Source of the DNA: Phycisphaerae bacterium
GTDB taxonomy: Bacteria; Planctomycetota; Phycisphaerae; UBA1845
NCBI GenBank assembly: GCA_029260165.1
Contig: JAJDDT010000102.1
Coordinates: 62,001-126,000 of the forward strand
Length of the DNA stretch: 64,000 nucleotides
Direction: 5' to 3'
Made by a program: the position numbers and the translations under genes
Notes under the pieces: generated by a model
The model's input: only the letters and a program-made list of their open reading frames with translations
Told to the model about the DNA's origin: nothing
Databases searched by the model: none
In this document: positions 4,739 through 21,183 of the stretch, in pieces
Numbering within the stretch: position 1 is the first letter of the stretch
Layout of the letters: each line of letters begins with the position of its first letter

Positions 4739-4930
4739 ATGACAGGAAAGAAAACAGACCCATCCAGGGATGAACGTCGCTGTGCGACTCAATCCAACGT
4801 TGGAGCTGACGGGGCGTCGGACAGCCACCGTGATTCGAGGTCGTCGGCGAGGCGGGTGAGTTCGTCTCGTTTCCTCCCGCCGAAGGAACGGCATCCGACC
4901 TCGCAGAAGCGGGTGCAAAGAGACGTTTGA
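4739..4930 (+). CDS. possible small basic protein, antisense to the hemerythrin 3' end
   Basis: A 63-codon frame beginning MTGKKTDPSRDERR, rich in Arg, Ser and Asp, with no recognisable domain. What favours it is expression signal rather than sequence: GGAGGG stands three bases before the ATG and a promoter-like TTGACC/TGTAAT pair lies about 60 bases upstream. Against it, bases 4789-4930 are the reverse complement of the well-supported hemerythrin gene, so the protein's second half could simply be a shadow frame. An antisense RNA is another possibility. Confidence 0.3.
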   Translation: MTGKKTDPSRDERRCATQSNVGADGASDSHRDSRSSARRVSSSRFLPPKERHPTSQKRVQRDV

Positions 4931-5394
4931 TCCTCCCCGGTCATGACGCTGTCGCCCATGTTGAAGAGGACGTTGTCTTCCTTGGAGATGTGGTTGGTGA
5001 GCAGCTCGATGTACTGATGTGCGGCGGTGTGAAACTGTTCTCGTCCGTTGGGTTCGTCGTTGCGAACGATGTTGATCGCGTCAGCCATCTGCGCGGTGAG
5101 TTGGCGGGCGATGTTGTGCTCGTGAAGCATGACACCGATCGGACCCCCGTCGCGCGGAATCCCTCGCGCTTCCAGCAGGGGGAACAGCAGGTCCTCTTCC
5201 TTGGCATGATGGCAGGCGTCAGCAAAGAGTTTGAAAAACACGACGCATTGCGAAAGGGCGTCCGTCTCGAACTGATCCTCGGATTCGGACAACGTCACCA
5301 GTTTGTTGAGAACGGCGATCACGCGCAGGATGATCTGGTGCTCGTTTTTGAGAACGGTTGACGGACGGTCAATCGGGTTCGGCTCAGTTAGCAT
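4789..5394 (-). CDS. hemerythrin-domain protein, last gene of the nap/bc string
   Basis: A 201-residue four-helix protein predicted to bind a di-iron centre and so O2, NO or related species in the cytoplasm. Candidate ligands follow the hemerythrin spacing: His19 (NEHQ), His62/63 with Glu66/67 (ACHHAKEED), His91/93 (MLHEHN), and His135 with Glu139 (TNHISKED). Residues 150-201 form an extra tail containing two cysteines (CTRFCEVGC). The start ATG at 5394 lies 11 bases inside the upstream ferredoxin gene, so it belongs to the operon. Its position with an Rrf2 regulator in a nitrate-reductase string suggests an NO- or oxygen-handling role; Fe-S repair of the RIC/YtfE kind is an alternative, but the N-terminal ScdA domain is absent. 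Confidence 0.88.
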   Translation of the reverse strand: MLTEPNPIDRPSTVLKNEHQIILRVIAVLNKLVTLSESEDQFETDALSQCVVFFKLFADACHHAKEEDLLFPLLEARGIPRDGGPIGVMLHEHNIARQLTAQMADAINIVRNDEPNGREQFHTAAHQYIELLTNHISKEDNVLFNMGDSVMTGEDQTSLCTRFCEVGCRSFGGRKRDELTRLADDLESRWLSDAPSAPTLD

Positions 5395-6013
5395 CGGTTG
5401 TTCCCTTGAAATAGGCGGGGGTTATTTGAATCGCATCGGCGGGGCAGAGGTAGTCACACACGCCGCAGCCCGAACAACCGGCGACCTGCACGTCGGGTAG
5501 TCCGTCTTTTCCGAAGGCGATGGCATCGGTTCCGAGTGGGCAGCGCACCACGCAGTAGTCGCAGGGTTGGCCTGCGGAGATGTAGCATTTCGACATACTG
5601 ACGACGGCGGTGCCCATTCGCACGTCTTTTCTTGCCACCATGCGCAATGCCTTAGGTTCGCAGGACGTGATGCAGGGCATGTCCTCGCACAAATAGCATG
5701 GCGACTCGGAAGCAATGATCGCGGGTGTTCCGGCGATCAGGTCAAACTCCGGTCCCAATCGTCGAATCGACTCGTACGGGCAGGCTTCCTGGCAGGCGGT
5801 GCATTGCGTGCAGGTTTTGAGGAATTCAGGCTCGGGAAGGGCACCGGGGGGTCGAAGCCAGGACGATGTTGCGGCGGAGTCAGTTTTGCAAGTTCCTGTT
5901 CCTGATTCCGTCGTGAACACACCGGTCTGCAAGCCAATCTGTTCGATGGCATCGGTGACGTTGGTCACCAGGGCTTGCCCAATCTGCGAGAAGAATTGAC
6001 GACGCGATACCAT
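5384..6013 (-). CDS. NapG-like ferredoxin-type protein (third copy), Tat substrate
   Basis: A 209-residue iron-sulfur protein starting MVSRRQFFSQIGQ, a twin-arginine signal, so it is predicted to be exported folded and to work on the periplasmic face. RPPGALPEPEFLKTC is the typical NapG/MauM lead-in. At least four cysteine clusters follow (CTQCTACQEACP, CYLCEDMPC, CDYCVVRCP, CSGCGVCDYLCP), matching four [4Fe-4S] sites. NapG carries electrons between the quinol-oxidising NapH and periplasmic acceptors. It begins 9 bases after the YHS-NapH fusion gene stops and overlaps hemerythrin by 11, placing it in the same transcript. Confidence 0.85.
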   Translation of the reverse strand: MVSRRQFFSQIGQALVTNVTDAIEQIGLQTGVFTTESGTGTCKTDSAATSSWLRPPGALPEPEFLKTCTQCTACQEACPYESIRRLGPEFDLIAGTPAIIASESPCYLCEDMPCITSCEPKALRMVARKDVRMGTAVVSMSKCYISAGQPCDYCVVRCPLGTDAIAFGKDGLPDVQVAGCSGCGVCDYLCPADAIQITPAYFKGTTDAN

Positions 6014-6022
6014 CGGAGGATC

Positions 6023-8089
6023 TCACATGGCGGAGGTACGCATTTCCATGGGTTGCTTGAGCAGCCACAGACTGAAGACGCTGAAGCATATCATGCCGAC
6101 GAGCATTGGCAATTGGCTGCGAAAGGCTGCCTTCGCGTTTCCGAACAATCGCAGGGATGTTTTCTGTGCGACCCAGAGGCTGTAGACGTGGCCTATGAGT
6201 ACGAGCAGGACCTGCACGATCCAGAGTGTTTGAAGGGAGATCATCGGTGGAATTGTCCAGTTGGCGGTCCCGAACAGGTTCCATCCCCAGCCACACGGAT
6301 CGGAGATCATGGTTAGGACTTTCGGTCCCTCCATGAGGAGATGTTCGAGGTTGTGGGCGATGTGGTAGAACAGTGCGATGGGGAGCAGGGCGTAGGCGTA
6401 TCGAATGAAATAGTCGCGATAGGTGAGTGGTTCGAGCGCGTGGCGACTGCCGAGTGCTCGCGAGAAGGCGACGAGGACGGCGTAGATGAGGATGGGGCCT
6501 ATCATCAGAAGGGTCATGCCCAGGCTGAATCCGATGATACGTCCGGTGTCTGCGAACCCGCGAATTCCGTCTACGAGTTGTTCCCACGCGGCGGTCATGG
6601 TCAGGCCGTGGAATCCGGTGATCGCGAGCATGAGGAGTGCGAGGTAGGCTTCGTCGGCGCGGGGTTTTCCTTCGGTGACGAGATCGCTTCCCCATGGGCG
6701 GAGGTTTAGTGCGAGGTTGTCGTGCGGACAGGCCTGGACGCATTCCATGCATTGGATGCAATAGGTGTTGGATTGTATTTTTCCGGGGTAGAGGAAGGTC
6801 GGGCAGCCATAGGCGGAGTCGCTGCCGGTGACGCATTCCTTTGACGCGCAACTGGTGCAGACGCTGTCGCTTTTTGCGCGAACTTCGGTGCTGGCGAACA
6901 TCGCGTAGAGACCGCTGACGCGTCCGACGAGGCAGCCGTATCGGCAGAAACTCTTGCGATCGAAAAGCATCGCGGACACGACGGCCATCAGAAGCATGCC
7001 GATGGCGAGATAGGCGGTCACGCGTGGTTTCATGGTGACCCCGAAACCCAGTTCGACCCATGTGAGGCCTACGAACATGATGGTTGCGATGGAAATATTG
7101 CGGATGATGCGAGGCCATTTGAGACCGTAGGTCAGACCATCGTCGGATTTTTTCCAGAAGCTCAGTCGCTCGGTCCATCCGGCGATCGCGTCCCAGGGGC
7201 AGACGTAGCACCATGCCTTTCCGGCGAACATGATCAGGATAATCAGGAGACCCCACCAGACCGTCCAGGTCAGGATCGGCGCGATGTTGAGGGCGGGGTT
7301 CTGGTTGCCGAACAATCCGGCCAGGATGATCATGACAAACGCGGCGGTGACGACGGCCTGACAAAAGAAGCGGAAGATGCGGGAGCAGGCTGCCTGTTTG
7401 ATGAGTCGCAGGGAGAGCAGGTCGAAGCGATCGTTGACTTGTGGAATGGCTGTGGCGGTCAGAATGGGCAGGGCGATCGATCCGCCGCTCGATGCGGTCC
7501 CGCCTGCGTTCAACATTCTTTCACCTTCCCCGCGGATTGTATCGGACGTGACATGTTTGCGTCGTGATCCGGACGGTTTCCCGACATTGGTTGTCGATTT
7601 TGTTCGCGACAGGAGGTCGAAAACACCAAAGCTGACGACCAGGACGACGGCGATCGACGCGTAGTAAAGCCATGTGGGGATTCCCCACATTGTGTGCATG
7701 AAGAAGGAGGCGGGGTCTTTTTTGAATTCTGCCCGATGGGCCTGGCTGCACATCTGATATGTTTTGCCGAGGTAGGTGGCAGGTAGCGAGCTGCCGTCTG
7801 CAAGTGTTGTCTGGCACACGGTGCATCGGGCTGACAGGTATGCTTTGGGGTCCTTTTCAAAGCTCTCTTTACACCACTTCGTGCAGAAGAAGAAGGTTTT
7901 GTCGTTGTATTGAGTGGTGACGTCCCAGGCAGCGTTGACTTCCATGTTGCAGACGACATCGACAATCGGACCGTCGGCGGAGGCGCGATGGTCCTGCTCT
8001 GATGACGATTCCCTGAGATTGGATCGCACCACGACGACAACGATACCGGTCAGCAGGATGTAGGGCAGGATCAGATTCAGGCGTTTCAT
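6023..8089 (-). CDS. YHS-YHS-NapH/NosR-like membrane iron-sulfur protein
   Basis: A 688-residue protein with an unusual domain order. Residues 1-22 form a membrane anchor. Residues 44-85 and 88-130 are tandem YHS-type modules with paired cysteines (VVCNMEV, FFCTKWCKESFEKDP; CTVCQ, CSQAHRAEFKKDP). The remainder is a polytopic NapH/NosR/CcoG-like unit with CYVCPWDAI and CRYGCLVG, two ferredoxin clusters (CTSC, CIQCMECVQACP) and about nine helices, ending in a haem- or quinone-type four-helix segment with several histidines (FYHIAHNLEH). It likely moves electrons from quinol to periplasmic ferredoxins. The ATG at 8089 lies 19 bases after the previous stop; an in-frame ATG at 8194 would overlap that gene by 86 bases and is less likely. 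YHS modules suggest metal (perhaps copper) sensing or transfer. Confidence 0.85.
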   Translation of the reverse strand: MKRLNLILPYILLTGIVVVVVRSNLRESSSEQDHRASADGPIVDVVCNMEVNAAWDVTTQYNDKTFFFCTKWCKESFEKDPKAYLSARCTVCQTTLADGSSLPATYLGKTYQMCSQAHRAEFKKDPASFFMHTMWGIPTWLYYASIAVVLVVSFGVFDLLSRTKSTTNVGKPSGSRRKHVTSDTIRGEGERMLNAGGTASSGGSIALPILTATAIPQVNDRFDLLSLRLIKQAACSRIFRFFCQAVVTAAFVMIILAGLFGNQNPALNIAPILTWTVWWGLLIILIMFAGKAWCYVCPWDAIAGWTERLSFWKKSDDGLTYGLKWPRIIRNISIATIMFVGLTWVELGFGVTMKPRVTAYLAIGMLLMAVVSAMLFDRKSFCRYGCLVGRVSGLYAMFASTEVRAKSDSVCTSCASKECVTGSDSAYGCPTFLYPGKIQSNTYCIQCMECVQACPHDNLALNLRPWGSDLVTEGKPRADEAYLALLMLAITGFHGLTMTAAWEQLVDGIRGFADTGRIIGFSLGMTLLMIGPILIYAVLVAFSRALGSRHALEPLTYRDYFIRYAYALLPIALFYHIAHNLEHLLMEGPKVLTMISDPCGWGWNLFGTANWTIPPMISLQTLWIVQVLLVLIGHVYSLWVAQKTSLRLFGNAKAAFRSQLPMLVGMICFSVFSLWLLKQPMEMRTSAM

Positions 8090-8108
8090 GGGTTCTTGTC
8101 CGGCTTTG

Positions 8109-9632
8109 CTATGCGACAGCGAGGGCGGCATCAGTATCGTTTGCGGCTGCTCGTCGTCTTGCTCGTTTCTTGTATACCGCTCGAATGAAAACAAACAGGA
8201 AAACGCATCCCCCGATACCTGCGGCTGCTATTGAACCGGCGGCGGTGGGTTCACCCGCGATCATCAGGAACGGAATAACCTCTATTCTGCCCTCGATCGG
8301 CAGCGACAGTTCGATAATATATTCTGCGTCCTGCGGAAACGTGACGTGGAATTTGTACTCATTGTCGAACGGTTCGCGCGAGGTTGCCGGCTGAATGATG
8401 GTGTTGTCGCCAAACGTGCTCGTTTTCAGAATGCGAACGGAGATGGGTTTTTCGTAGACGCGTTTGGTCTCGCGGTTCTTGATGTAGAAGGCGAGGTTTG
8501 CGGGTTCCGCGGGCACCGGGTTTCCCGGGTAGGAAGTCAGCAAAACGTCATATGGCCCGGTTACTGCGGGGTATTCCAGCGTTGGGCGCTGCGGATAGTT
8601 CTCCTTGTAGGAATAATGCGGCAGCCCGAGAATATGGTGTGCGTCCGCGCGATCGACCATGGCGAAAGCCAGCAGCGTTATGGCAAGCAGCGTGATTTTT
8701 CCCCCAGTGATCGGTCGACGCTTGTTTTTCTCCGGCAGGCTGATGGTGTAGTAGAGCGCGTCTTCCGGACAATGTCGAATGCAGACGCCACAGTTGTCGC
8801 ACTCGATTGACGACGACTGCGTGATCGGGTTAAGACCTTCCTCGCAAATGGGGAAGCAGTCGGCGCAACCGGTGCAGAGGTCTGTCCTGAGCTTGATGCG
8901 CACGGGGCGCATCCACCCGATCAACCCATACAGGGCGCCGCCCGGGCACATCGTTCGACACCACCATCGTGGCGAGACGAGCAGTTCGAACGCGATGATC
9001 AGGGCCAACAACACGAGCATTCCGACCAGCGAGGTACCGAATATCCACGCGTGCACCGCACGACTGATGACGGCGGGTGGGTAAATCAGGGCGAAGAGGG
9101 GTGCTGAAAACGTGGCAGCGAGGGCGAGTCCGACTGCAAGGAAGATGTACTTGTTTCGGTGCGAGAAACGGACCTCGCCGGGACGAATCTCAGCCACGCG
9201 AAGCAGACGACGCAGCTTGCCGGTCAGCTCGAAAAGCAGATAGGCTGGGCAAATCCAACTGCAAAAAACACGACCCAGGAGCAGCGCGATCACGACCGGA
9301 ATGAGGATGGACGCGATCAGAGGCCAGTGGACATGTTTTGAAGCGGCCAGCATCTCCATGGCTGCGAGTGGATCGGTCAGTTCGACCCCCATCAGGCGCA
9401 TCGACCACAGGGTTCCCTTGTTTCCGTCCAGGAATTCCTGCGGTTTTTTCATTTCGTCGACGTAGGGGTGAACCATTTTCGTCACGACTTCACCACGAAG
9501 ACCGGCCATCAACTGGTCGTCGTCTATCACTCTTGCGGCGCGATAGTGGGAGTAGAGACTCAGGAGCGCCACGCCGATCACGACCAGAACCACGGCTGTC
9601 TGAAGCAGTCTTCGGATAATCTGAAGGATCAT
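8109..9632 (-). CDS. NapH-like quinol dehydrogenase with C-terminal periplasmic domain
   Basis: A 507-residue membrane protein. An N-terminal helix is followed by a short soluble part, then four helices with the NapH-family CX3CP motifs (FCSWICPAYLL and WCRTMCPGGAL) and two [4Fe-4S] clusters (CTGCADCFPICEEG, CDNCGVCIRHCPED). After a further helix (about residue 310-330) comes a predicted periplasmic beta-rich domain of about 130 residues, FixH/YtkA-like in flavour, and a final helix with a basic tail. NapH takes electrons from the quinol pool and hands them to NapG. The ATG at 9632 overlaps the upstream stop by four bases (ATGA). The added periplasmic domain is not part of standard NapH and may dock to a partner. 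Confidence 0.85.
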   Translation of the reverse strand: MILQIIRRLLQTAVVLVVIGVALLSLYSHYRAARVIDDDQLMAGLRGEVVTKMVHPYVDEMKKPQEFLDGNKGTLWSMRLMGVELTDPLAAMEMLAASKHVHWPLIASILIPVVIALLLGRVFCSWICPAYLLFELTGKLRRLLRVAEIRPGEVRFSHRNKYIFLAVGLALAATFSAPLFALIYPPAVISRAVHAWIFGTSLVGMLVLLALIIAFELLVSPRWWCRTMCPGGALYGLIGWMRPVRIKLRTDLCTGCADCFPICEEGLNPITQSSSIECDNCGVCIRHCPEDALYYTISLPEKNKRRPITGGKITLLAITLLAFAMVDRADAHHILGLPHYSYKENYPQRPTLEYPAVTGPYDVLLTSYPGNPVPAEPANLAFYIKNRETKRVYEKPISVRILKTSTFGDNTIIQPATSREPFDNEYKFHVTFPQDAEYIIELSLPIEGRIEVIPFLMIAGEPTAAGSIAAAGIGGCVFLFVFIRAVYKKRARRRAAANDTDAALAVA

Positions 9633-10351
9633 GTGGCTGCCTCCAGGGCAGGATGTTTTCGCGTTCTTACGACGCGGATGGCTGGCTCACCGCGCACGAC
9701 GGTGCGGCAGATGTCTTCGCACATTCCACACCCGACGCAGTGTTCCGTGAAAATCAGCGGTGCGAGAAACGCGCCCGGAACAAGCCTGATCGCCCGGTTG
9801 CGCAACGGGCAGAACATGTAACATTCACCGCACGGTCCACGACGCTCGGCGTGCGCATCGGACTCGGTCGGCTTGCGGCCTAACCGCACCAATAGATCCT
9901 GCTCCTCGCGGATGCGTTTGGCTTTGTAGGACAGGCACAGGTCTTCGCGCAGTTCGACAGAACCCATCTCGACTTCGGTTTTGTCGTCAAACGCCAACAG
10001 CGCTCCGGTCGGACAGACTGGCCCACACGCGTTGCACAACGTGCACCCATTTTTGGCTGGATCGACATAGGGCGAATGGAACAGATCACCATCCGCTTCG
10101 GTGTAGAATTGAATGGCCCCGGGTTCACACGCATCCTGACACTTGTAGCAGCGAATGCAGGCGGCCAGGAAGTCGCGTTCCGGTAGCGCACCCGGTGGCC
10201 TGAGAATTCCGACGAGTTTCTCGTAGGGACGTTTGACGATCGGATATTGCGACAGGCGCGTTCGGTTCAGAAAATGGGCGATGCTCCCGACAAGAGCGAA
10301 TCCCACCCCGACGGCCATCGTGCGAATGACCTCTCGTCGCGCGGTGGCCAT
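9629..10351 (-). CDS. NapG-like ferredoxin-type protein (second copy)
   Basis: A 240-residue iron-sulfur protein. The chosen ATG at 10351 gives MATARREVIRTMAVGVGFAL, a basic N-terminus plus hydrophobic stretch, possibly a divergent export signal with only one arginine pair at residues 5-6. It overlaps the upstream stop by one base (TGATG). RPPGALPERDF introduces the clusters CIRCYKCQDAC, CTLCNACGPVCP, CGECYMFCP and CVGCGMCEDICR, again four sites in NapG style. Longer in-frame readings up to 10537 would lie inside the preceding gene and are rejected. It likely forms a pair with the NapH-like protein encoded immediately downstream. Confidence 0.83.
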   Translation of the reverse strand: MATARREVIRTMAVGVGFALVGSIAHFLNRTRLSQYPIVKRPYEKLVGILRPPGALPERDFLAACIRCYKCQDACEPGAIQFYTEADGDLFHSPYVDPAKNGCTLCNACGPVCPTGALLAFDDKTEVEMGSVELREDLCLSYKAKRIREEQDLLVRLGRKPTESDAHAERRGPCGECYMFCPLRNRAIRLVPGAFLAPLIFTEHCVGCGMCEDICRTVVRGEPAIRVVRTRKHPALEAAT

Positions 10352-10959
10352 CACGCGTTGCTCCGTACGCGGATCGCATGGGGATAGCGGATGCACGACC
10401 GCTCGCAACATCCGCAGCCGACACACGCTTCCGCGTGGATGGTCGGTCGCTCCCACGAGCCGATCGTCATGGCTTCTCCTGCAAGCGGGCACGCTCGAAA
10501 GCAGGCGCCGCAGCTCCAGTTGTTGTAGGAATAGCACAGATCGAAATCAATCTCAGCCACACCGATGGCGACGTTGTCGAGCACGTTCTGTCTGTCTTTT
10601 TTCACCAGTTGCAGAGCACCGCTCGGGCAGACCTCGGTGCATTTGAGGTAGTCGCCGTCGTCGCTGGCACAGAGCATGCAGGCGGCTTTGCGGGGGTGCA
10701 TGGTCGGAGTGCTCGCACGTCCTCCGGGTTCGCTCAGCGGCATGGGAACGAGGGCGTGGTTTGGACACGCGTCGACGCACTGCATGCAGCGGATGCAGGT
10801 GGCGACAAAATCGTCTTCGGGCAATGATCCCGGTGGACGCAGCGGTGGCGGCTGATCGTTTGGCGAGTTTGATACCACGCCCACGGTGATCGCGCCGACA
10901 CCGATCGTCGCTCCGACGGCTACCGACTGTTTGACAAATTCTCGTCGACTGACGCCCAT
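10351..10959 (-). CDS. NapG-like ferredoxin-type protein (first copy), Tat substrate
   Basis: A 202-residue exported iron-sulfur protein. MGVSRREFVKQSVAVGATIG is a clear twin-arginine signal. RPPGSLPEDDF then leads into CIRCMQCVDACP, a CMLC...CTEVCP cluster, CGACFRACP and CVGCGCCERSC, enough for four [4Fe-4S] centres. The ATG at 10959 is 7 bases past the napA stop; an in-frame ATG at 11007 overlaps napA and lacks the signal at its front. It is the gene directly after napA and so the best candidate for the immediate electron donor to the reductase, or to a complex that contains it. Confidence 0.85.
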   Translation of the reverse strand: MGVSRREFVKQSVAVGATIGVGAITVGVVSNSPNDQPPPLRPPGSLPEDDFVATCIRCMQCVDACPNHALVPMPLSEPGGRASTPTMHPRKAACMLCASDDGDYLKCTEVCPSGALQLVKKDRQNVLDNVAIGVAEIDFDLCYSYNNWSCGACFRACPLAGEAMTIGSWERPTIHAEACVGCGCCERSCIRYPHAIRVRSNA

Positions 10960-10966
10960 GGTCGTT

Positions 10967-13741
10967 TCAGATAACCTCGATACGGGTCGCAAGTTTCTTG
11001 TAATCACACTGTCCGCTCACCGGATCCCACGCGCGGTGGCTTGCCGCGTTGACGAGCCATTTGTTCTTGCGCGGGTCGGCGCTGTCTGCGACGGACAGGT
11101 TCCATGGACTGAACAGGTAGCCACCCGGAACCTCGGATCGGGCGGGTCGAATCATACTCATCTGCCCGACGGTCACACGCGCTTCGTACGAACCTCGCCG
11201 CGTGACCAGACGCACCCGCTGACCGTCTTTCAGGCCGTAGCGTTTGGCGTCGTCGTCGTTGACCTCGACGTATTGTTCAGGGACGAGTTTTTGCGTCGTC
11301 GCGCCGCGGATGGTCTTGGCTGTGTGGAAATGTTCGTAAACGACGCCGAGGCCCAGCCAGAACGGGTAGAAATTATTTTTCTTATGATCGCTCAAGGACA
11401 TTGTTTCGTCGGCGTAAACGTCAAGATGCGGTAGCTCCGGCGGCAGACCGGCGTCGCGCGCCTTGACCAGGATGCGTGGCTTGCCCTTGTTGGGACCATC
11501 GGTGTGCAGGTCGTCGATCAGGAAGGGCCCCTCGCCGGGACGACGTTTGTCACCGTATTTCATCAGTTCCGTCGTGATGCTGTCGAGTTGTGTGTAATCC
11601 TGTTCACACAGTTTGATTCGCGCCTTTCCGTCGGCATGTCGGAAATCTCCGTAGGGTGCGCCAGCCCAACCCTCCTGACCCAGATAGCGTCGCGGTGTTC
11701 CACCTGCTTTGGCAATCTCGGCGGTTGGTGCGGGCCATTGAATACCTCGAAGACTGCGAAGCTGGTCGTATGGCGAGATTCCGTCGCGTTTTTCAACCTC
11801 GAGAATTCCCGAAAGATCCGCATCGGAGTTTTTGCTGGCGGCTACGATGTCGCGGAACACGTCCTCGGGATCGTACGCCATCAATCCGTTGCCCATTTTG
11901 ATTTTTTTCTCGTACGGGAAAATCGCGTGGGCATCGAGGCCCAGCTTTTCAGCCAACACCTTGCCCTTGTCGATGGCCATGTCCATGTCTGGTCGGCAAT
12001 TCGGTGGCGGATTTTTTGTTCCATCACAAATGTAGACACGTCGCTCCGACTGGATATAGGTGCCACCCGTCCATTCACCCCATGTGGCTGCCGGGAAGAT
12101 GATGTCCGCGTATAGATTGTTCGGAGCGTGCCGATAGATTTCCTGCACGACGACGAACATGCGCGATAGCGCTGGGCGGACGAGCGTCTCCAGATCGGGC
12201 ATGTGCACATGCGTCGTGTACATCCAGAACATCGCGTCCAACCCGCCCTGTAGCGCCCGTTCCATCATACCGATGACCATACCCGGATTGGGCAGGGCGG
12301 AGGTTTGGGCCAATCGCTCGCGCGGGACGTGCCAGCGGTCGGCGATGTGGTTTCGCCATGCCTCGTTTTTCAGTGGCTGATTGAACGGCAGGCGACCGGT
12401 CAGTCCGCCCATCAACCTTTCGCTCATCGCGTTGGGTTGTCCGGTTTGTGAATGACTGCCGCAACCCGGTCGGCCCAGATTACCGGTCAACAGATGCAGG
12501 TTGATGATGCTGATCGTGTTGTGTTGTCCGTGGAGCATCTGGTTGTAGCCAATGCCCCAAAAACTCAACACACCGCCCCGGCCTCTTTGGCGACCCTTGA
12601 TGGATGCCTCCGCCCAGGCCTGGGCGACTTTTTCGATCGTCTCAACAGTCACGCGTCCGTTGTCGATGCGGCGCAGGCGATCGACGACCTGTTCGGGCGA
12701 GTATTTTTCCAACACCCCGTCGCGATATGCTTTCCAACCGTTGGTGTGCTTTTCGAGCCATTCATCCGACATGCACGCTTTTGGATATTTCTTCATCAGC
12801 ACATGGGCGATGGCGTTGAGGTAACTGATGTCGCCGTTGAGCGTGGGAATGTGGTAACTGTTACGCGGGTTGATGTCTTCCAGTCCGATGACCGATCCCG
12901 TTTTTCGCGGGTCAGCCACGCAGGTGGGAATGTCATTTTTGGATTTGTGGTCAGCCACTCGCCAGAACAGAATCGGGTGGGCTTCGCGGGCGTTGTGACC
13001 CCAGAAGGTGATGAAATCCGCCTCCTCGATATCCTCGTAACTCGTGGGCGGTGCATCAGAACCGTAGGAGTGAAAATATCCGGTGACGGCAGACGTCATG
13101 CACATCCGCGCGTTGGCTTCGATCGAGTTGCTACCGATCACGCCTTTCATCAGGACGTTTTCGATCCACTGGGCTTCCATGGTGAGCTGACCGGAACCGT
13201 TCAGCCCGACCGCGTTGGGACCCTTTTCGCGAATCACCTCGGCGATGCGTTCAGCCACGATTTCCTCAGCCTCTTCGTAGGGAACTTCCCGATAGACATC
13301 GTCGTCGAATCGGCCCTTGGTTGCGGAGATGTGTCCCCTCAACGGGTCACTCATGTCGCGACGCACGAGTACCTTTTCGAGTCGGTCCCGATAGATCGGT
13401 TCGTGTGCGTTGAGACCCTTGATGCACTGAATTCCGCGATTCGTCGGATGCTTCTTGTCCGGGACCATGCCGACAACTTTTTCGTTCTCGACCTTGATCA
13501 GCGTACCGCAACCCACCCCGCAATACGGACAAGCCGCCTGCAACAACCTGACCCCGGTGTTTTGACCGGCGGTGAGGTCCGGCGAAGCGTTGGCCTGAAC
13601 AAATTCGCCCGGAAGCGCCGTTGTCATCGCGACGGCTGTACCGGTACCCGCCGCCATTTTCATGAACGAACGGCGGTCGAATTCCTCGCCATATTTGACG
13701 CGGCGATGGATTGTGCATGGTGTCTGTTTAGGATCACTCAT
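10967..13741 (-). CDS. napA: periplasmic nitrate reductase catalytic subunit (NapA-like molybdoprotein)
   Basis: A 924-residue bis-MGD molybdoenzyme predicted to reduce nitrate to nitrite in the periplasm. RRSFMK at 24-28 with a hydrophobic stretch is a Tat signal. Cys71, 74, 78 and 106 (CPYCGVGC ... CIKG) bind [4Fe-4S]. EANARMCMTSAV places the molybdenum ligand at Cys214, as in NapA. Later family motifs include HLLTGNLGRPGCG and QTGQPNA. It is about 90 residues longer than most NapA, mainly in the stretch before the cofactor-binding C-terminal barrel. It overlaps the upstream cytochrome gene by 8 bases. No NapB, NapC or NapD is encoded nearby, so its electron supply must differ from the classical system. 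Another oxoanion is possible, but the active-site context favours nitrate. Confidence 0.87.
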   Translation of the reverse strand: MSDPKQTPCTIHRRVKYGEEFDRRSFMKMAAGTGTAVAMTTALPGEFVQANASPDLTAGQNTGVRLLQAACPYCGVGCGTLIKVENEKVVGMVPDKKHPTNRGIQCIKGLNAHEPIYRDRLEKVLVRRDMSDPLRGHISATKGRFDDDVYREVPYEEAEEIVAERIAEVIREKGPNAVGLNGSGQLTMEAQWIENVLMKGVIGSNSIEANARMCMTSAVTGYFHSYGSDAPPTSYEDIEEADFITFWGHNAREAHPILFWRVADHKSKNDIPTCVADPRKTGSVIGLEDINPRNSYHIPTLNGDISYLNAIAHVLMKKYPKACMSDEWLEKHTNGWKAYRDGVLEKYSPEQVVDRLRRIDNGRVTVETIEKVAQAWAEASIKGRQRGRGGVLSFWGIGYNQMLHGQHNTISIINLHLLTGNLGRPGCGSHSQTGQPNAMSERLMGGLTGRLPFNQPLKNEAWRNHIADRWHVPRERLAQTSALPNPGMVIGMMERALQGGLDAMFWMYTTHVHMPDLETLVRPALSRMFVVVQEIYRHAPNNLYADIIFPAATWGEWTGGTYIQSERRVYICDGTKNPPPNCRPDMDMAIDKGKVLAEKLGLDAHAIFPYEKKIKMGNGLMAYDPEDVFRDIVAASKNSDADLSGILEVEKRDGISPYDQLRSLRGIQWPAPTAEIAKAGGTPRRYLGQEGWAGAPYGDFRHADGKARIKLCEQDYTQLDSITTELMKYGDKRRPGEGPFLIDDLHTDGPNKGKPRILVKARDAGLPPELPHLDVYADETMSLSDHKKNNFYPFWLGLGVVYEHFHTAKTIRGATTQKLVPEQYVEVNDDDAKRYGLKDGQRVRLVTRRGSYEARVTVGQMSMIRPARSEVPGGYLFSPWNLSVADSADPRKNKWLVNAASHRAWDPVSGQCDYKKLATRIEVI

Positions 13742-16652
13742 GGCTAGTCTCCTTGAGTGGTGTTGAGCGATTCAGGGCCACCGCCCCGTCATTCGCGTCG
13801 TGTGTTTCAGTGAAAGGCGTCGCAACCAGCGAGTGCTCCGCCGGAATCGTCATGGGCGATGGGGTCTCCGTCGACCAATGACGCATGTAGGCCACAATAT
13901 CGTCGATATCCTGCGAGGTAAGGTCAGTCACACCGTGCGCACCCTGCCCGAACGGGCGCATGGCTGTTCCGGTTCGACCGCGAACAATCGTCGCCTGTAA
14001 GAATCCATCCGTCGCAGCCGAGAGAAATCCCTCGTTGTTCAACTCCGGTGCCCAGGAGTTTCGCCCCTCGTCCCCATGGCAACCGGCGCAATTCGAGCGA
14101 AACAGTTCCCGTCCGTGCGCCAGGTCCCAGGGCACGACGAATCGATGGGGAATCTCCTGCGGCTTGCCCGGTCCAAAGGGTGGATCGTGCTCCCATGATC
14201 GAAGAAATGCCACCAGATCGTTTACGTCGTCGCTGGACAAGCTGAGGATCGATTGCGGACCACGTTTGACAGGTCTCATCTCCGTCCCCCGTCGTCCCAT
14301 CGCCATGGTCGCCATCAGAAAACCATCCGACGCGAAGCGCAGGAAGTTCGGATTCGACAACGCCGGTCCGCTGGTTCCCTCACCTCGGTCCCCGTGGCAA
14401 CTCACGCACTGCTGAGCATAGATCGTCGCGCCCCTGCGGGGGCGACCATGGGGCGACTTTGAAACACGGGTGATTTCATCGGGTTCGGTTCGCTCGAGAA
14501 GTCGCAGATACGCGATCAAGTCCTCGATCTGGCGATCGGAAAGCTCGGTAATGCCCTGGCCTCCCTTGCGGAAACCGCGCATCTCCGTGCCCTCCTTCCC
14601 GTTCGTGATCCAGTGTCGCAACATGACATTCGACACCGTTTCCAGAAATACGGGGTTATTCAGTTGAGGCCCGGTCGCGCCCTCGCCGTCAGATCCGTGA
14701 CACCCGGAACAATGTCCGGTGAACAAATGACGTCCCGCGTCCCAATCCCCCGGCGTCACCGATTGGGCGTGCCATTCTTCGGTCATCGAATCCTTCGTTT
14801 GCCATGTGCGCAGGTGTTGAATGATCGACGCGATGTCGTCGTTGCTCAGATGACGCCAGCTCGGCATTCCCGTACCGGGGCGCCCCTCGATCATGGTTTT
14901 CACGAGATAGCCGTCGAGCACAGCCGTTAGAAATGCCTGCGTGTTGATCGACGGGCCCAGATCTCCGGAACCGTCCGCCCCGTGACACATCGTGCAGTTG
15001 GCTTTGTAGAGAATCGCACCGATATCGGCCGACACGTCCGCGGAAGGTGCGTCCGAACAGCGTGCAAGAGCGCTGTCGAAATCGCTGTGCGGCGGCTGCC
15101 AATCGCGCATATACGCCAGCAAGTCGCTGATCTCCCGAGCGTTGAACTCCCGCCACGCGGGCATCGCCGTGTTGGGTCTGCCGTAGACAATCGTATCGCG
15201 CAGAAACGCGTCAGAAGCAACAGCCAGAAACGTCGGCGAATTCAGCGACACACCAATACCGCCCTCGCCGCTGCGACCATGACAGGCTGCACAATTCGCC
15301 CGATACAGGGCGGCTCCGACATGCATGTCGCCACGGGCTGCGCTGACGGCATCCAGATCGGGGACAGGCTCGTCCCAGCCACGGACGAAATCCACGAGCA
15401 ACGTGATTTCGTCGTCCGACAGGCCTCCCTCGTCCGCCCATCCGAGCATCTTCGTCCCCGGTCGTCCACGCGCGATGATTCGCCGCAGATAATCGTCACT
15501 CGCGACCGCCAACGTGTCGGGGTGATGCAGCGATGGCACGACAACATCAATCGAGCTGCGCCTTTCAACAACGATGTCGGTCCGATCCCAATGGTGACCC
15601 CACGGGTCGGCATTTGTAGGCCACAGTCCCTGACGCGTCGTCGTTCCGTGACCGTCCCTGCCATGGCAGGACGAGCAGAACATGCCATAAAGCGTGGACC
15701 CGCGAACAGGACCGCCCTCGCGAACACGCGAACGCGGAATATGACTGGCGGGGGCGGATTTGCGCTTCAAGCTCATCATATAAAGCGCAAGATCACGGGC
15801 TTCGTCATCGGTCAGCTCCATGTCCGGCATGACCGTCCCCGGTGACACCTCCTGCGGATATTTGAAATGCTCGAACAACCACTGCTCGACCGTATGTTCG
15901 CCTCGCACATGGGAAAAATCGAAACCGTGCTTACCTTTGTCACCAACATGCGTCAGGTCCGCCCCCAGTGTTCCACCGCGACCGCGATATTTATGACAGC
16001 CCAGACAACCCAGTTCGGTCATCAGCTTCTTGCCCTGTGCAAGTCGATCCGCACCGGGCAGCGATTGCTCCAGCGATCCCCGATCAATACTGCCACCCGA
16101 TGCGCCGGCGAACAGATCAGATTGGCCACCGTAAAGATCGTTCTCCGCGTGGCAACGACCACAACTGGTAAACACCGCATCGTCCCGCAGCAGGGGCGTT
16201 TCAATATGCGGAACAACCGTCCCATCGGATTGCCAGCCATGCGCCGACGCCTTCTGCGTTCCCCGTCCCACGCCGTGATGACAAATCGTGCAACCAAACT
16301 TTTCGGGTGGATGCCAACCCAGCCATTCACCGGGATGCGTTGTGAGCGGTTGCAACGCATCGACCATCCCCGGATTCTCAACACCGAGGTGGCAGGTCGT
16401 ACACCGATCGATCGTTTCGATATCAGGCAGGTATTGCTGTTTGAGGGTCACCTTGAATGACGAGGCTGATCGACGGGCAGCGTCGGTCGTTGCCGTCTCC
16501 AGCAGCAGATCGCCATACCGTTGCTGCACGGTTCTCCACTCACCGTGAAAATTCTCCTGATACGCCGCGATGAAAAGCACCGCCAGACACGCCAGCGAAC
16601 TGATCAGAAGAACGATCTTCGTACCATGAACTTGTCGATGATCCATTTTCAT
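13734..16652 (-). CDS. membrane-anchored ten-haem c-type cytochrome with tandem mono-haem modules
   Basis: A protein of about 972 residues with one N-terminal membrane helix and ten CXXCH motifs, so it should be anchored in the membrane with the haems in the periplasm. Haems 1-3 (CTTCH, CTICH, CGRCH) lie in the first 180 residues and haem 4 (CLGCH) in a separate module. Haems 5-10 (CSSCH, CAACH, CTMCH, CSGCH, CVSCH, CAGCH) sit in six tandem cytochrome-c modules of about 100 residues, each with a GXXGTXM-like distal methionine. It follows cytochrome b by a few bases and overlaps napA by 8, which suggests it carries electrons from the Rieske/b complex. ATG at 16652 and 16646 are both possible; AGG is better spaced for 16646. 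Confidence 0.88.
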   Translation of the reverse strand: MKMDHRQVHGTKIVLLISSLACLAVLFIAAYQENFHGEWRTVQQRYGDLLLETATTDAARRSASSFKVTLKQQYLPDIETIDRCTTCHLGVENPGMVDALQPLTTHPGEWLGWHPPEKFGCTICHHGVGRGTQKASAHGWQSDGTVVPHIETPLLRDDAVFTSCGRCHAENDLYGGQSDLFAGASGGSIDRGSLEQSLPGADRLAQGKKLMTELGCLGCHKYRGRGGTLGADLTHVGDKGKHGFDFSHVRGEHTVEQWLFEHFKYPQEVSPGTVMPDMELTDDEARDLALYMMSLKRKSAPASHIPRSRVREGGPVRGSTLYGMFCSSCHGRDGHGTTTRQGLWPTNADPWGHHWDRTDIVVERRSSIDVVVPSLHHPDTLAVASDDYLRRIIARGRPGTKMLGWADEGGLSDDEITLLVDFVRGWDEPVPDLDAVSAARGDMHVGAALYRANCAACHGRSGEGGIGVSLNSPTFLAVASDAFLRDTIVYGRPNTAMPAWREFNAREISDLLAYMRDWQPPHSDFDSALARCSDAPSADVSADIGAILYKANCTMCHGADGSGDLGPSINTQAFLTAVLDGYLVKTMIEGRPGTGMPSWRHLSNDDIASIIQHLRTWQTKDSMTEEWHAQSVTPGDWDAGRHLFTGHCSGCHGSDGEGATGPQLNNPVFLETVSNVMLRHWITNGKEGTEMRGFRKGGQGITELSDRQIEDLIAYLRLLERTEPDEITRVSKSPHGRPRRGATIYAQQCVSCHGDRGEGTSGPALSNPNFLRFASDGFLMATMAMGRRGTEMRPVKRGPQSILSLSSDDVNDLVAFLRSWEHDPPFGPGKPQEIPHRFVVPWDLAHGRELFRSNCAGCHGDEGRNSWAPELNNEGFLSAATDGFLQATIVRGRTGTAMRPFGQGAHGVTDLTSQDIDDIVAYMRHWSTETPSPMTIPAEHSLVATPFTETHDANDGAVALNRSTPLKETSHE

Positions 16653-16654
16653 AC

Positions 16655-18283
16655 CTAATGCACAGGCCAATCACTCTGCGACCAGAAGAAATCCCAGTTT
16701 GGACCGCGGTGAACCGTCGCGAAGTACGTCAAAATCGCAAAAGACACCAAAAAACAAGTGAACAACGCGATGGCCCCCATCCGTGTAGACTGCTTCCGTC
16801 TGACCACGAGAACGGACCACGCAGCGAACAATGCCACAAAAATCGTCCCGGGGTTCAAAACCGTGATCACAATCTGCGGAACACGCGCGGTCGCCTCCCA
16901 ATTGCGAAGCCAACCGAACCTGACCGTAAACGCAAGCATGCCAACCGTTGCGATCGTTGCAAAGATGGCGCTGATCACCGCGATACGTCGCCCCTCACGT
17001 CCACTGAACCAGACCCCGACATCCTCACGCTCGCGATCCAGATAGGGCACCAGCATAAGACCCAGCAGGACGATCGCGGGAATACCGACCCCGCCCATGA
17101 AGGCTGAATAAGACACAAGCTCCTGCAAACCAAGGAAATACCACGGCGCTTTTGCGGGATTCTCCGGAACTGCGGGGTTGGCCATCTCGCTCAGCGGTGC
17201 GTCAGCCAGCACACCCAGCAGCAGCATCGCAAGGGTCGTCACCATCGCAACAGCACCGATGACGTACATCACGTTAGGCCAGGTCATGATCGTGTTGCGG
17301 AGTTCAAGGTTGACAGCGGGCGTCTTCCCCTTCATCAACCCCATCAACCCATAGGTCTTGAGCAGCCCGGTCGATTCACCACCACGACTATCACCACCCG
17401 TCGCAGGCATCGAAGGCGTCGCATCGCTCACGCCCATATCCGCAGCGCTGGGCCTTGCAAATCCACCGTCCTTGCGGATGCGCCACATGTGCACAGCGAT
17501 CAGTATCGACGTGACAATCGGCAGCACCATGACGTGCAACACATAAAACCGGATCAGCGCTTCCTGCCCGACGTAATGGGCACCGAGAAGCAACTCCTTT
17601 TGCATGCGCCCGGGATCGAAATATTGCGTGATGCCGATCGCATCCGTCAACTCCTGCGGTGATTGGGCAATGTTCGCGCCGATCGTCACCGCCCAGAACG
17701 CCAGTTGATCCCACGGCAACAGATAACCCGTGAAGCTCAACCCCAGCGTCACCGCGAACAACGCCATCCCGATCACCCAGTTGAACTGTCTGGGCGGCTT
17801 GTACGCCGACGTGTAAAACGCGCGAGCCATGTGCAGAATCACACAAAAAACCATCGCATGGGCCGACCACCGATGCACGTTGCGGATCAATCGACCGGTC
17901 GGAACAACGTGAATGATGTCCAGCATCGACGCATACGCCTGATCCACCGAGGGCTTGTAGTACACCATCAGCAGCACGCCGGTCACGCACAAAATGATGA
18001 AAAGCACCAACGTCGCCACACCGAGACCAAACGTCGTCGTCAGTTTGATCGAGTGCAGGTGTGTTCGAACCGGAAGAACGTGAAGGAAGAAATTCGTGAA
18101 CACCGTCTGCGAACGAGCACGATCGGAAGTCGGTTTCCCATGGCGAATCATCGAGTCACGAAATGACCGAGGCGTATCCATGAGGTTGCGGCCGAAATCG
18201 CGCATCGCTCCGTCATCACCGATGTGCCGGGCGACCGGTTTCTTCTCCGACGGCGACGGTTGACTGGTTTGTGTTTCAGGCAT
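16655..18283 (-). CDS. full-length cytochrome b of a Rieske/cytochrome b complex
   Basis: A 542-residue quinol-oxidising cytochrome b. After about 80 polar residues come the b6-like half (RWSAHAMVFCVILHMARAF and FTGYLLPWDQLAFWAVTI) and the subunit-IV-like half with PWYFLGLQELVSYSAFMGG, where one expects PEWYF in other families; here it reads APWYFL. About nine helices are visible. Paired histidines in helices B and D (HRWSAH/LHMAR and FYVLHVMVLP/AVHMWR) would bind two b haems. It is 31 bases downstream of the Rieske gene and abuts the ten-haem cytochrome gene, so the three form the core of a bc-type complex. Fused b6/IV halves match other planctomycete complexes as far as I recall. Confidence 0.92.
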   Translation of the reverse strand: MPETQTSQPSPSEKKPVARHIGDDGAMRDFGRNLMDTPRSFRDSMIRHGKPTSDRARSQTVFTNFFLHVLPVRTHLHSIKLTTTFGLGVATLVLFIILCVTGVLLMVYYKPSVDQAYASMLDIIHVVPTGRLIRNVHRWSAHAMVFCVILHMARAFYTSAYKPPRQFNWVIGMALFAVTLGLSFTGYLLPWDQLAFWAVTIGANIAQSPQELTDAIGITQYFDPGRMQKELLLGAHYVGQEALIRFYVLHVMVLPIVTSILIAVHMWRIRKDGGFARPSAADMGVSDATPSMPATGGDSRGGESTGLLKTYGLMGLMKGKTPAVNLELRNTIMTWPNVMYVIGAVAMVTTLAMLLLGVLADAPLSEMANPAVPENPAKAPWYFLGLQELVSYSAFMGGVGIPAIVLLGLMLVPYLDREREDVGVWFSGREGRRIAVISAIFATIATVGMLAFTVRFGWLRNWEATARVPQIVITVLNPGTIFVALFAAWSVLVVRRKQSTRMGAIALFTCFLVSFAILTYFATVHRGPNWDFFWSQSDWPVH

Positions 18284-18314: not shown

Positions 18315-18809
18315 CTACGCGTTGAGCGTTTTTCCGGGTTCCGTCTCTTTCAAAGTATCAGCCACAAGCCATCCTTCGGGCGAGACCGTGAGTTCAACCC
18401 ACATCAGACCCTTGGGGGCAGGCCCTGCGGTCACCGCACCGACTGCGTCGAATCTTGAACCATGGCACGGACAGTGAAAATCGCCCGCCTCCGACCGTTC
18501 GGCGATGCAACCAAGGTGCGTGCACACCGAGGAAATGGCGTGAAACCCGCTCGAATCGCGGTATAACCACAACCGTTGCGGCGCAAAATAAGTCGTCGAT
18601 CCGGCTGCAAAGTCCTGAGGCTTGCCCAGTTTCACCTTCGTGTCCGATTCGGGGAAAACCGAGGGCATTGGCAGGCGCATCGCGCCCAGCATCCCCATAA
18701 CAAAAGCCCCGACCGCCGACCACGCCGCCGCCAATCCCAGAAAGTCGCGACGCGTCTTCGGTGTCGTGAACCGCTCACTCGTTTGTAATTGATCGTTCGG
18801 ATTCATCAT
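18315..18809 (-). CDS. Rieske [2Fe-2S] protein
   Basis: A 164-residue Rieske subunit. KTRRDFLGLAAAWSAVGAF is a twin-arginine-type signal that probably stays as a membrane anchor. The two cluster boxes are intact: VCTHLGC (Cys-His ligands plus disulfide cysteine) and CPCHGSRFD. It accepts electrons from quinol at the cytochrome b Qo site and passes them to a c-type haem, here most likely the ten-haem protein encoded two genes later. The start codon begins directly after the stop of the GltD-like gene (TAA then ATG ATG), indicating translational coupling. Confidence 0.93.
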   Translation of the reverse strand: MMNPNDQLQTSERFTTPKTRRDFLGLAAAWSAVGAFVMGMLGAMRLPMPSVFPESDTKVKLGKPQDFAAGSTTYFAPQRLWLYRDSSGFHAISSVCTHLGCIAERSEAGDFHCPCHGSRFDAVGAVTAGPAPKGLMWVELTVSPEGWLVADTLKETEPGKTLNA

Positions 18810-20726
18810 TTACTCCGACCACTGACAGGAAAACCCAAACCGCTCCATCGAGATCGCCCCGACAGGGCATCTTTCCGCGCACAACGCACAACGGATGCAT
18901 TTCTCCTCATCCTTCACGATGGCAGACATCTCCGACAAATCCGCTCCCAAATAACGTTCCTGCAAAAGCGCCCCAAATGCGTCGTCCCCGGTCAATCTGT
19001 CGCACGACACCAGCTTCAAACACAATTCGGGACAGACATCCGCACAACCACCACATAGAATGCACTTCTCGGAATCAAATATCGTGTTGACCCCGCAGTC
19101 CAGACACCGGGACGCCTCGGTCACCGCAGACAATTCGTCATAACCGCGTTCCACGACGGCTGTCTGACTTGTGCGACGCTCCTCCGCGCTCACCGCAGGG
19201 ATAGCCTCTCGTTTCAGCTTCTCGTAATCCCGCTCTCTGCCATAGTCCGGAAGATTGATTTGCACGAATTCGTCCCGTCTCCGAAGCGTCTGACCGGTCA
19301 GGCTCGCGTGAATCGAACGAGCGACTTTTTTCCCGCTCGCCACCGCGTCAATCAGCAACCGGGGACCATACGCAAGGTCGCCCGCCAGGTAGACGTCCGA
19401 CGCCGAGGTCCGCAGTGTCTCCATGTCACACTGAATCAAGCCCCGGTCGTTCATTTTGATGTCATCTTCCGGACCGATGAACGACACGTCCGAACGCTGG
19501 CCGATCGCCCAAACCACCGTATCCGCAGGAATAAACGTCGTGTCAGCCTTGTCAAACTGCGGCGAGAATTTTTTGTTTTCATCAAAAACACGCAGGCATC
19601 GCTGGAACGTAATCCCTGTTACCGCCCCGTCCGCGTTTCGTTCAATGGACACAGGACCCAGCGACGGATGCAGCAGGACACCCTCTTCATGACCTTCGAT
19701 GATTTCCACGTCGTCCGCCGGCATCTCGTCAACGCTTTCGAGACAGCAAAGATGCACCTCCCGAATACCCGCCTGACGCAACGCGCTTCGCGAAACGTCA
19801 TAACTTATCTGTCGAACAACACTGCGCGAAACGTCGTAGGCAACGTTGCCACCACCGATGACAACAACCCGCTCACCCAGCGATGACAACGACGATGACG
19901 ATGTTTTGTCCCCGAGCGCCACGTCTCGCAGAAACTCAACACCGCCAAGAATCCCAGGCCCGTCACCGCCGGGAATCGGAATGATCCGCGACCGCTTCGC
20001 GCCGACCGCAACAAGCGTCGCCGCAAACTTTTCACGGATTTCCGAAAAAGTGATGTCCTGGCCGACCTGCGTGTTGCAGATGAATTCGACCCCCAGACTG
20101 CGAATAACCTCCACCTCCGCCGCGATCAAATCGCGCGGCAGACGATACTCCGGAATGCCAAACGCCAGCATCCCCGCAGGCACAGGCTCCATCTCGAATA
20201 CCGTCGGGCGATGACCCAGCAACGCAAGATCGTGGGCAGCCGCCAAACCCGCAGGCCCGGAACCGATGATCGCAATCTGCTCGCCCTTGCCTGTGCGCCC
20301 GTCAACAGGGTCCAACGAGTTGCGAAACGAAACCAACTCCTCCGGTCCGCGACAGTCCCGCGCCCCCGCACCAATAACGCGATTGAGCAATTCGATCGGC
20401 TTGAGTGTCTCCCGCGTGAACGATTCAGGCCCAAACCGCTCGGTCACAAAACGCTTCAACCCGCGGATCGAAATCGCCTCATCCACAGCACCCCGGCGAC
20501 AGGCTGCCTCGCAAGGGGCACCGCACACGCGACCGCAGATACTCGCCAGCGGGTTCGGACCCCGGGCGATTCGGTAGGCCTTCTCAAAATCACCGTCGGC
20601 GATCGCACGCACATAACCACGCGCATCGGTATGCACCGGACACGCATACTGACAACTGATCTGCCGTTGCCAGTAATCATCGTCCGGCACTTCGATCTGG
20701 ATCGGCGAATGGCTCATAACATCCAC
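18810..20726 (-). CDS. GltD-like FAD/NAD(P) oxidoreductase with C-terminal ferredoxin clusters
   Basis: A 638-residue soluble oxidoreductase of the glutamate-synthase small-subunit type. N-terminal CQYACPVHTDARGY and CGRVCGAPCEAAC would hold two [4Fe-4S] clusters. GSGPAGLAAAHDLALLG binds FAD and VVIGGGNVAYDVSRS binds a pyridine nucleotide. The C-terminus adds two ferredoxin clusters (CILCGGCADVCPELC and CIRCALCAERCPVGA). No glutamate synthase large subunit is encoded here; placed first after the regulator and next to Rieske and cytochrome b, it likely exchanges electrons between NAD(P)H and that complex. Odd point: a 12-residue tandem duplication just after the nucleotide-binding loop (bases 19773-19844). 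An ATG at 20717 is an alternative start. Confidence 0.87.
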   Translation of the reverse strand: MDVMSHSPIQIEVPDDDYWQRQISCQYACPVHTDARGYVRAIADGDFEKAYRIARGPNPLASICGRVCGAPCEAACRRGAVDEAISIRGLKRFVTERFGPESFTRETLKPIELLNRVIGAGARDCRGPEELVSFRNSLDPVDGRTGKGEQIAIIGSGPAGLAAAHDLALLGHRPTVFEMEPVPAGMLAFGIPEYRLPRDLIAAEVEVIRSLGVEFICNTQVGQDITFSEIREKFAATLVAVGAKRSRIIPIPGGDGPGILGGVEFLRDVALGDKTSSSSLSSLGERVVVIGGGNVAYDVSRSVVRQISYDVSRSALRQAGIREVHLCCLESVDEMPADDVEIIEGHEEGVLLHPSLGPVSIERNADGAVTGITFQRCLRVFDENKKFSPQFDKADTTFIPADTVVWAIGQRSDVSFIGPEDDIKMNDRGLIQCDMETLRTSASDVYLAGDLAYGPRLLIDAVASGKKVARSIHASLTGQTLRRRDEFVQINLPDYGRERDYEKLKREAIPAVSAEERRTSQTAVVERGYDELSAVTEASRCLDCGVNTIFDSEKCILCGGCADVCPELCLKLVSCDRLTGDDAFGALLQERYLGADLSEMSAIVKDEEKCIRCALCAERCPVGAISMERFGFSCQWSE

Positions 20727-20772: not shown

Positions 20773-21183
20773 TCAGGTCCCATCCTCTTCTCGAAACGCC
20801 ACGTCGTGGATCGTTGTCTCCCGCAAAAAACGCCGCTCGGAGTCAACCACCTGTTTCCACCGACTGTGCGCCAAACATGGATCCTCATCGCTGCACTCCC
20901 CGTTACCAAAAGGACACCGACGCCGATCAAACTGCTCAAAAGGAGCCAGAATCTCGTAAAGCGTGGTTTCCTCCGCCAACCGCCGAAGTCGAAACCCACC
21001 CGTCTTTCCCGGAGACGAGTCCAGAATGCCGGAACGAACCAGGTCGCGCAATATCTTTGAAAGATATTTCGCGGGAATCTCCGCGGACTCAGCAATCTTC
21101 CGACCGGGAACAGGCCAGGACTCAGGATGCTGAGCGAGATAAATCATCGCCCGAAGGGCATATTCGCTGGTCAGGGTCAACAA
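20773..21183 (-). CDS. Rrf2-family iron-sulfur regulator
   Basis: A 136-residue winged-helix regulator. LTSEYALRAMIYLAQHP and AEIPAKYLSKILRDLVRSGI are the classic Rrf2 N-terminal helices and recognition helix. Three cysteines in RRCPFGNGECSDEDPCLAH have the NsrR/IscR-like arrangement that binds an Fe-S cluster sensitive to NO, iron or redox state. The start is TTG (21183), chosen because it gives the standard family N-terminus, with GGAG ahead of it. It is the first gene of the nap/bc string, 46 bases before the GltD-like gene, and so likely controls that operon and itself. A candidate operator lies at 21204-21229. NsrR-like NO sensing is a guess. Confidence 0.9.
   Translation of the reverse strand: MLTLTSEYALRAMIYLAQHPESWPVPGRKIAESAEIPAKYLSKILRDLVRSGILDSSPGKTGGFRLRRLAEETTLYEILAPFEQFDRRRCPFGNGECSDEDPCLAHSRWKQVVDSERRFLRETTIHDVAFREEDGT

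Follow-up and report, generated by a model that had tools for sequence, protein, structure and literature searches.

What does a ten-haem cytochrome c do when its gene lies beside that of a cytochrome b: does it act as a free-standing electron wire, or does it belong to a complex with a definite partner? The window, by which we mean the whole 64,000-nucleotide stretch of Phycisphaerae DNA analysed here, encodes such a decahaem protein (Table 1), with CXXCH motifs at residues 84, 121, 164, 216, 326, 454, 553, 648, 749, and 855. Composition-shuffled copies of the chain contained a mean of 0.02 and a maximum of 1 such motif. The reading frame starts with ATG, and a TTG at position 16670 is a possible alternative. 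The first-pass annotation had described six CXXCHG modules with distal Met ligands, preceded by a three-haem part, a one-haem part, and a membrane anchor; all of these were found, on the minus strand, which it had not specified.

Table 1. Operon genes in the order of transcription, and parts of the decahaem protein, in window coordinates
Feature	Position	Strand	Remarks
Rrf2-family regulator	20773..21183	minus	
GltD-like NAD(P)/FAD oxidoreductase	18810..20726	minus	638 aa; additional Fe-S motifs; Kuste4570 homologue
Rieske protein	18315..18809	minus	164 aa; CTHLGC...CPCH; PF00355; twin-arginine N-terminus
Cytochrome b	16655..18283	minus	542 aa; b6 and subunit IV parts fused; Qo motif APWY
Decahaem cytochrome c	13734..16652	minus	972 aa; TM anchor, 3-haem head, 1-haem domain, 6 mono-haem modules
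 Membrane anchor helix	16557..16625	minus	residues ~10-32; hydrophobic; also a helix in the model
 Three-haem head	16044..16442	minus	residues 71-203; homologous to N-terminus of anammox hexahaem subunit Kuste4573
 Fourth haem domain	15735..16043	minus	residues 204-306; distal Met275
 Module h5	15369..15713	minus	Met402; insert relative to other modules
 Module h6	15093..15329	minus	Met497
 Module h7	14793..15032	minus	Met596
 Module h8	14487..14747	minus	Met691
 Module h9	14184..14444	minus	Met792
 Module h10	13869..14126	minus	Met898
Nap-like molybdopterin oxidoreductase	10967..13741	minus	924 aa; twin-arginine N-terminus; [4Fe-4S] motif; Mo-ligand Cys (ARMCMTSAV)
NapG-like ferredoxin protein	10351..11007	minus	
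Second NapG-like protein	9629..10537	minus	listed ORF start probably too early
NapH-like membrane protein	8109..9632	minus	
YHS-domain + NapH-like membrane protein	6023..8194	minus	723 aa; fusion conserved in operon
Third NapG-like protein	5384..6013	minus	named from sequence; conserved operon member
Hemerythrin-like protein	4789..5394	minus	named from sequence; conserved last operon gene

Haem sites 5–10 are all CXXCHG, are spaced 95–128 residues apart, and are each followed by a distal Met in a G[RK]xxTxM motif. These six Met residues, together with that of the fourth haem domain, were invariant in 17 decahaem homologues, and Pfam recognised six Cytochrome_CBB3/Cytochrom_C stretches in the chain. 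With a CXXCH, a C-terminal distal Met, and a c6-like fold, the modules have the characters of class I cytochromes c. The head combines its three CXXCH motifs with four invariant non-motif His residues (106, 114, 138, and 149), which, judged from the sequence, would be enough for bis-His ligation; haems 1 and 2 with His106 and His138 were invariant among ten aligned family members. In terms of conservation, h9 and h10 ranked highest among the six modules (69% mean pairwise identity), followed by h6 (67%), and the C-terminal extension was the least conserved part of the protein (27%). The residues around each module Met differ between modules, as had been claimed, and are kept at each position. 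They do not translate into redox potentials, and the gradient of potentials suggested in the first-pass annotation is conjectural.

The full-length protein was modelled poorly by AlphaFold2 with 10 homologues (pLDDT 54, pTM 0.38); a model of h6–h8 from an alignment of 20 rows was confident (pLDDT 86.8, pTM 0.77). Single modules matched cytochrome c6, NirN, kustc0562/0563, and CcoP (Z ~10–12). The h7–h8 pair superposed loosely on the dihaem protein Kustc0458 (Z 11.7, 177 aa, 4.8 A) and on QcrC (154 aa, 5.8 A), which was among the top Foldseek matches. QcrC, the cytochrome cc of the actinobacterial bcc-aa3 supercomplex, likewise carries tandem class I haem domains and links a Rieske/cytochrome b complex straight to a terminal enzyme. 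It has two haems and cytochrome aa3 as its partner, and its complex is not known to include an NAD(P) subunit. CcoP, subunit III of cbb3 oxidase, also has tandem class I modules and was matched in phmmer and HMM searches, and TIGR00782 was exceeded just above its cut-off because the scores of the repeated modules were summed. However, CcoP is a dihaem protein encoded with CcoN and CcoO, whereas here the chain has ten haems, the operon contains no oxidase gene, and the sole COX1 found lies on another contig; we therefore rejected this assignment.

Modules h5–h10 were 30–42% identical to one another and 19–29% identical to h4. In a tree of 123 modules, the same positions of different decahaem proteins grouped together (16 changes versus 89.9 after shuffling). 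Both results support the proposition that the modules arose by tandem duplication within one chain. The question that had been raised about its age, whether it was recent, can be answered in the negative from the module identities and the position-specific clades: the duplication is older than the decahaem family in its entirety, members with as little as 39% identity included, and is thus ancient. That lowest value belongs to the protein of genome G465, the most distant decahaem found; its modules joined the same positions, with weak support, and an independent amplification in this lineage was unsupported. These patterns in the sequences point to a single old amplification followed by long position-specific conservation across the Planctomycetota.

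The operon runs from the Rrf2 regulator through the GltD-like NAD(P) oxidoreductase, the Rieske protein, the fused cytochrome b, the decahaem protein, and the Nap-like molybdoenzyme to the NapG/NapH genes and the hemerythrin. Its genes are co-directional and nearly contiguous, and their order is kept in many Planctomycetota. The closest solved relatives of the molybdoenzyme were NapA proteins (238 bits), followed by formate dehydrogenases. Its Mo-ligand Cys aligned with that of NapA, and, read from the sequence, its N-terminus is of the TAT type (DRRSFMK). It scored 311 of the 904 bits and 289 of the 930 bits set as cut-offs by the NCBIfam NapA equivalogs; falling so far short, the enzyme can be called Nap-like only, and nitrate is its likely, not its assured, substrate. 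A further molybdoenzyme of the same genome (L072, G000:C66:9000-15500) is a 1174-residue DMSO-reductase type II protein with a NarH-like beta subunit, possibly related to nitrate or nitrite. On contig C20, this genome also carries a haem-copper oxidase, in the vicinity of which a second protein of the cytochrome b6 type and a haem protein of 1327 residues are encoded, indicating that the operon is not its only quinol-oxidising chain.

The closest counterparts of the Rieske/cytochrome b core are the complexes Kuste4569–4574 and Kustd1480–1485 of the anammox bacterium Kuenenia stuttgartiensis, for which NAD(P)H formation by bifurcation has been argued, with Rieske potentials above +300 mV and with AlphaFold3 models that place an interface haem b between the His43 residues of both monomers (PMC12954380). 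The locus L065 of our set is Kuste4569–4574, and its cytochrome b His43 and Arg247 and NAD(P) oxidoreductase Arg511 match the published numbering. Both systems contain a Rieske protein, a b-type cytochrome, an NAD(P) oxidoreductase, and a multihaem cytochrome c that is anchored in the membrane and whose head is homologous (E 1e-8 between the decahaem head and Kuste4573), and they share the Qo motif. In core loci from Phycisphaerae to anammox bacteria, the GltD-like gene adjoins the Rieske and cytochrome b genes. His43 of Kuste4571 aligns without gaps with His68 of the window protein (18080–18082), which is kept across the family, the interface haem itself being a prediction. In contrast, Cys61 of Kuste4571, at haem cN, is replaced by Gly86 (18026–18028); no Cys occurs at this position in the fused cytochrome b family, whereas one is present in L065–L067, and we therefore do not file the complex as an anammox subtype. 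Arg511 of Kuste4570, placed by the anammox model close to the interface haem, corresponds to a Gly in the GltD-like protein. The cytochrome b alignment includes one b6 sequence, which serves for orientation only. The two systems differ further in that cytochrome b is fused here, the tail consists of six class I modules rather than the four haems of Kuste4573, and the partner is a Nap-like molybdoenzyme rather than an HAO-like octahaem protein.

The core was traced through its cytochrome b in 397 genomes of Phycisphaerae and 392 of Planctomycetota, and the neighbourhoods were read. The c subunits in these loci consist of the three-haem head, a fourth haem (outside anammox bacteria), and a variable remainder, giving totals of 4 (L068), 6 (L027, L038, L043, L044, and L048), 7 (L053–L059 and L062–L064), 8 (L029 and L050), 9 (L051), and 10 haems. 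Wherever the molybdoenzyme occurs (20 loci, 67–90% identity), a 10-haem gene directly precedes the enzyme gene; this count includes three loci split over contigs (G010, G337, and G465), in two of which the chain is only partial on the contig of the enzyme or on a sister contig. In the 23 core loci that lack the enzyme, the c subunit has 4–9 haems and never 10, one locus (L028) being cut by its contig. In whole-genome searches, the molybdoenzyme was found in 14 of 397 Phycisphaerae genomes, all 14 of which contain the core, and among the genomes searched, copies with >60% identity occurred only in those with a decahaem protein. Fisher's test, which ignores kinship, gave 2e-12 for the association between 10 haems and the enzyme; there were three phylogenetically independent contrasts on supported branches and five on all branches, too few for significance, so that the association is perfect but rests on few events. 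Two genomes carry both kinds of locus (G368, L037 and L038; G686, L047 and L050), and in the core tree, 6-haem copies without the enzyme were nested inside the decahaem group, so that the core has probably been kept while its tails were exchanged. Since close relatives have another haem tail and no molybdoenzyme, the tail resembles a plug that can be exchanged.

Several relatives deserve mention in their own right. The eight-haem c subunits (L029:214-1485 and L050:8405-9811), from non-anammox Planctomycetota, have tails resembling that of Kuste4573 (38–41% identity, E ~1e-21) and lie near genes for 11–13-haem proteins with doubled CXXCH motifs. The nine-haem form (L051:9916-12222) has five tail modules, with genes for 10- and 12-CXXCH proteins nearby, and L068:10390-11343 is an apparent minimal form with the head and one haem. 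In several genomes, a gene for a four-CXXCH protein of 750–830 residues is found near the operon (L018:829-3243, L039:4300-6786, and L045:9706-11970), and in genome G019 an eight-CXXCH gene lies between the molybdoenzyme and napG genes (L034:8656-9936). The cytochrome b of PNC21 occupies two overlapping frames (L026:8236-9817), probably because the gene is split or was misread in sequencing.

The reading that we prefer, with a probability of about 50%, is that an NAD(P)-linked Rieske/cytochrome b complex has the decahaem protein as its high-potential branch, through which it is connected to nitrate reduction. It is based on the gene order, the conservation of haems and ligands, the homology of core and head, the one-to-one link between ten haems and the molybdoenzyme, the retention of His68, and the missing cN Cys. 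The protein would act as the c-type subunit of the complex in place of cytochrome c1/f. Quinol would be oxidised at the positive side, and the first electron would pass through the Rieske cluster to the conserved head, run along the six Met-ligated modules, and be handed to the exported enzyme at its [4Fe-4S] cluster and Mo site; we infer that this enzyme docks physically, and it would most likely reduce nitrate. The second electron would take the b haems and, probably via an interface haem b on His68, the Fe-S/flavin subunit to NAD(P)+ as the low-potential acceptor, in line with the proposal for the anammox homologues. The parts of this scheme differ in strength. A link between the decahaem protein and the Nap-like enzyme is well favoured by the loci surveyed, whereas NAD(P)+ reduction by bifurcation, unproven in the anammox complexes too, is plausible at slightly less than even odds. 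Several points count against the scheme: the score of the molybdoenzyme lies far below the NapA cut-off, the NapG/NapH proteins offer an alternative route from quinol to the enzyme, the Arg511 of Kuste4570 has been replaced, and the association between ten haems and the enzyme rests on few independent contrasts.

The replacement of Arg511 also favours the most serious alternative, one that we consider possible though less likely than not, namely that this is an ordinary proton-pumping Rieske/cytochrome b complex running a Q cycle, linked by the decahaem protein to nitrate reduction, and that the GltD-like protein is not reduced by the b haems, supplying or consuming NAD(P)H in some other place or having a structural role. 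Precedents of this kind exist. In Caldithrix abyssi, Rieske/cytochrome b genes sit with the nap genes (Cabys_2564–2557) and their products have been proposed to feed NapM/NapA (PMC5317091); this cluster resembles ours in combining NapA, NapG/NapH, and Rieske/cytochrome b without NapB/NapC, but has a separate tetrahaem NapM, and the paper mentions neither an NAD(P) subunit nor a tandem class I array. For ANME-2d archaea, a route from quinol through Rieske/cytochrome b and cytochrome c to an exported nitrate reductase has been proposed, again with no NAD(P) subunit mentioned, although that reductase is of the NarGH type and the cytochromes are different (PMC5244752). Against the alternative stand the constant position of the GltD-like gene next to those for the Rieske protein and cytochrome b in the core loci, with His68 conserved along with it, and the missing cN Cys, which is part of the b6f-type N side.

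A conductor of the kind that the first-pass annotation had envisaged, long and periplasmic, can be upheld insofar as the protein is membrane-anchored and encoded next to cytochrome b, the adjacent upstream gene. The form of a free-standing wire is the poorer fit, since the decahaem gene directly precedes that of the Nap-like enzyme in every locus of this type, which suits an enzyme link better. It is accordingly quite improbable that the protein spans the periplasm, or reaches the outer surface, to serve distant or extracellular partners, even though a chain of six tandem modules is long and other family members lie near 11–13-haem proteins; among the genes of the operon, none was recognised as encoding a porin or an outer-membrane cytochrome. 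The least probable explanation is that the extra modules store electrons like a capacitor, or buffer the supply to the enzyme, instead of bridging a distance: ten haems exceed the need of a short hop and the modules are similar in sequence, but the conserved Met-flanking residues and separate clade of each position suit position-specific roles, without being decisive.

As for the preferred reading, the parts of the complex are known separately from the anammox complexes, the Caldithrix nap cluster, and QcrC, and neither their combination nor the rule relating tail to enzyme was found in the literature searched, which yielded no paper on Phycisphaerae with this operon. Those parts of a report on metagenome-assembled genomes of the OFTM series that were available (PMC10732223; the series name is common to L018 and L021) list an R/b complex and nap genes, and do not describe the cluster itself.

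The source of NAD(P)H in anammox bacteria is an open question, for which bifurcation by Rieske/cytochrome b complexes has been proposed. Here, the same core occurs outside the anammox bacteria, with the interface-haem His kept, haem cN absent, and a defined likely terminal enzyme. The retention of His68 together with the absence of the cN Cys means that natural variation separates two candidate electron routes to NAD(P)+. Tentatively, and with the odds somewhat against the whole, the complex might be a quinol-driven bifurcating NAD(P)+/nitrate oxidoreductase, in which ten-haem nitrate reduction would pay for NAD(P)H through an interface haem b that would be novel and would do without haem cN, and the c subunit might be a plug that, with a constant head and tails open to exchange, connects a single bifurcating core with various terminal enzymes across the Planctomycetota, including the anammox bacteria. 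The general rule that this suggests would be that of a single quinol-oxidising core with many swappable haem tails.
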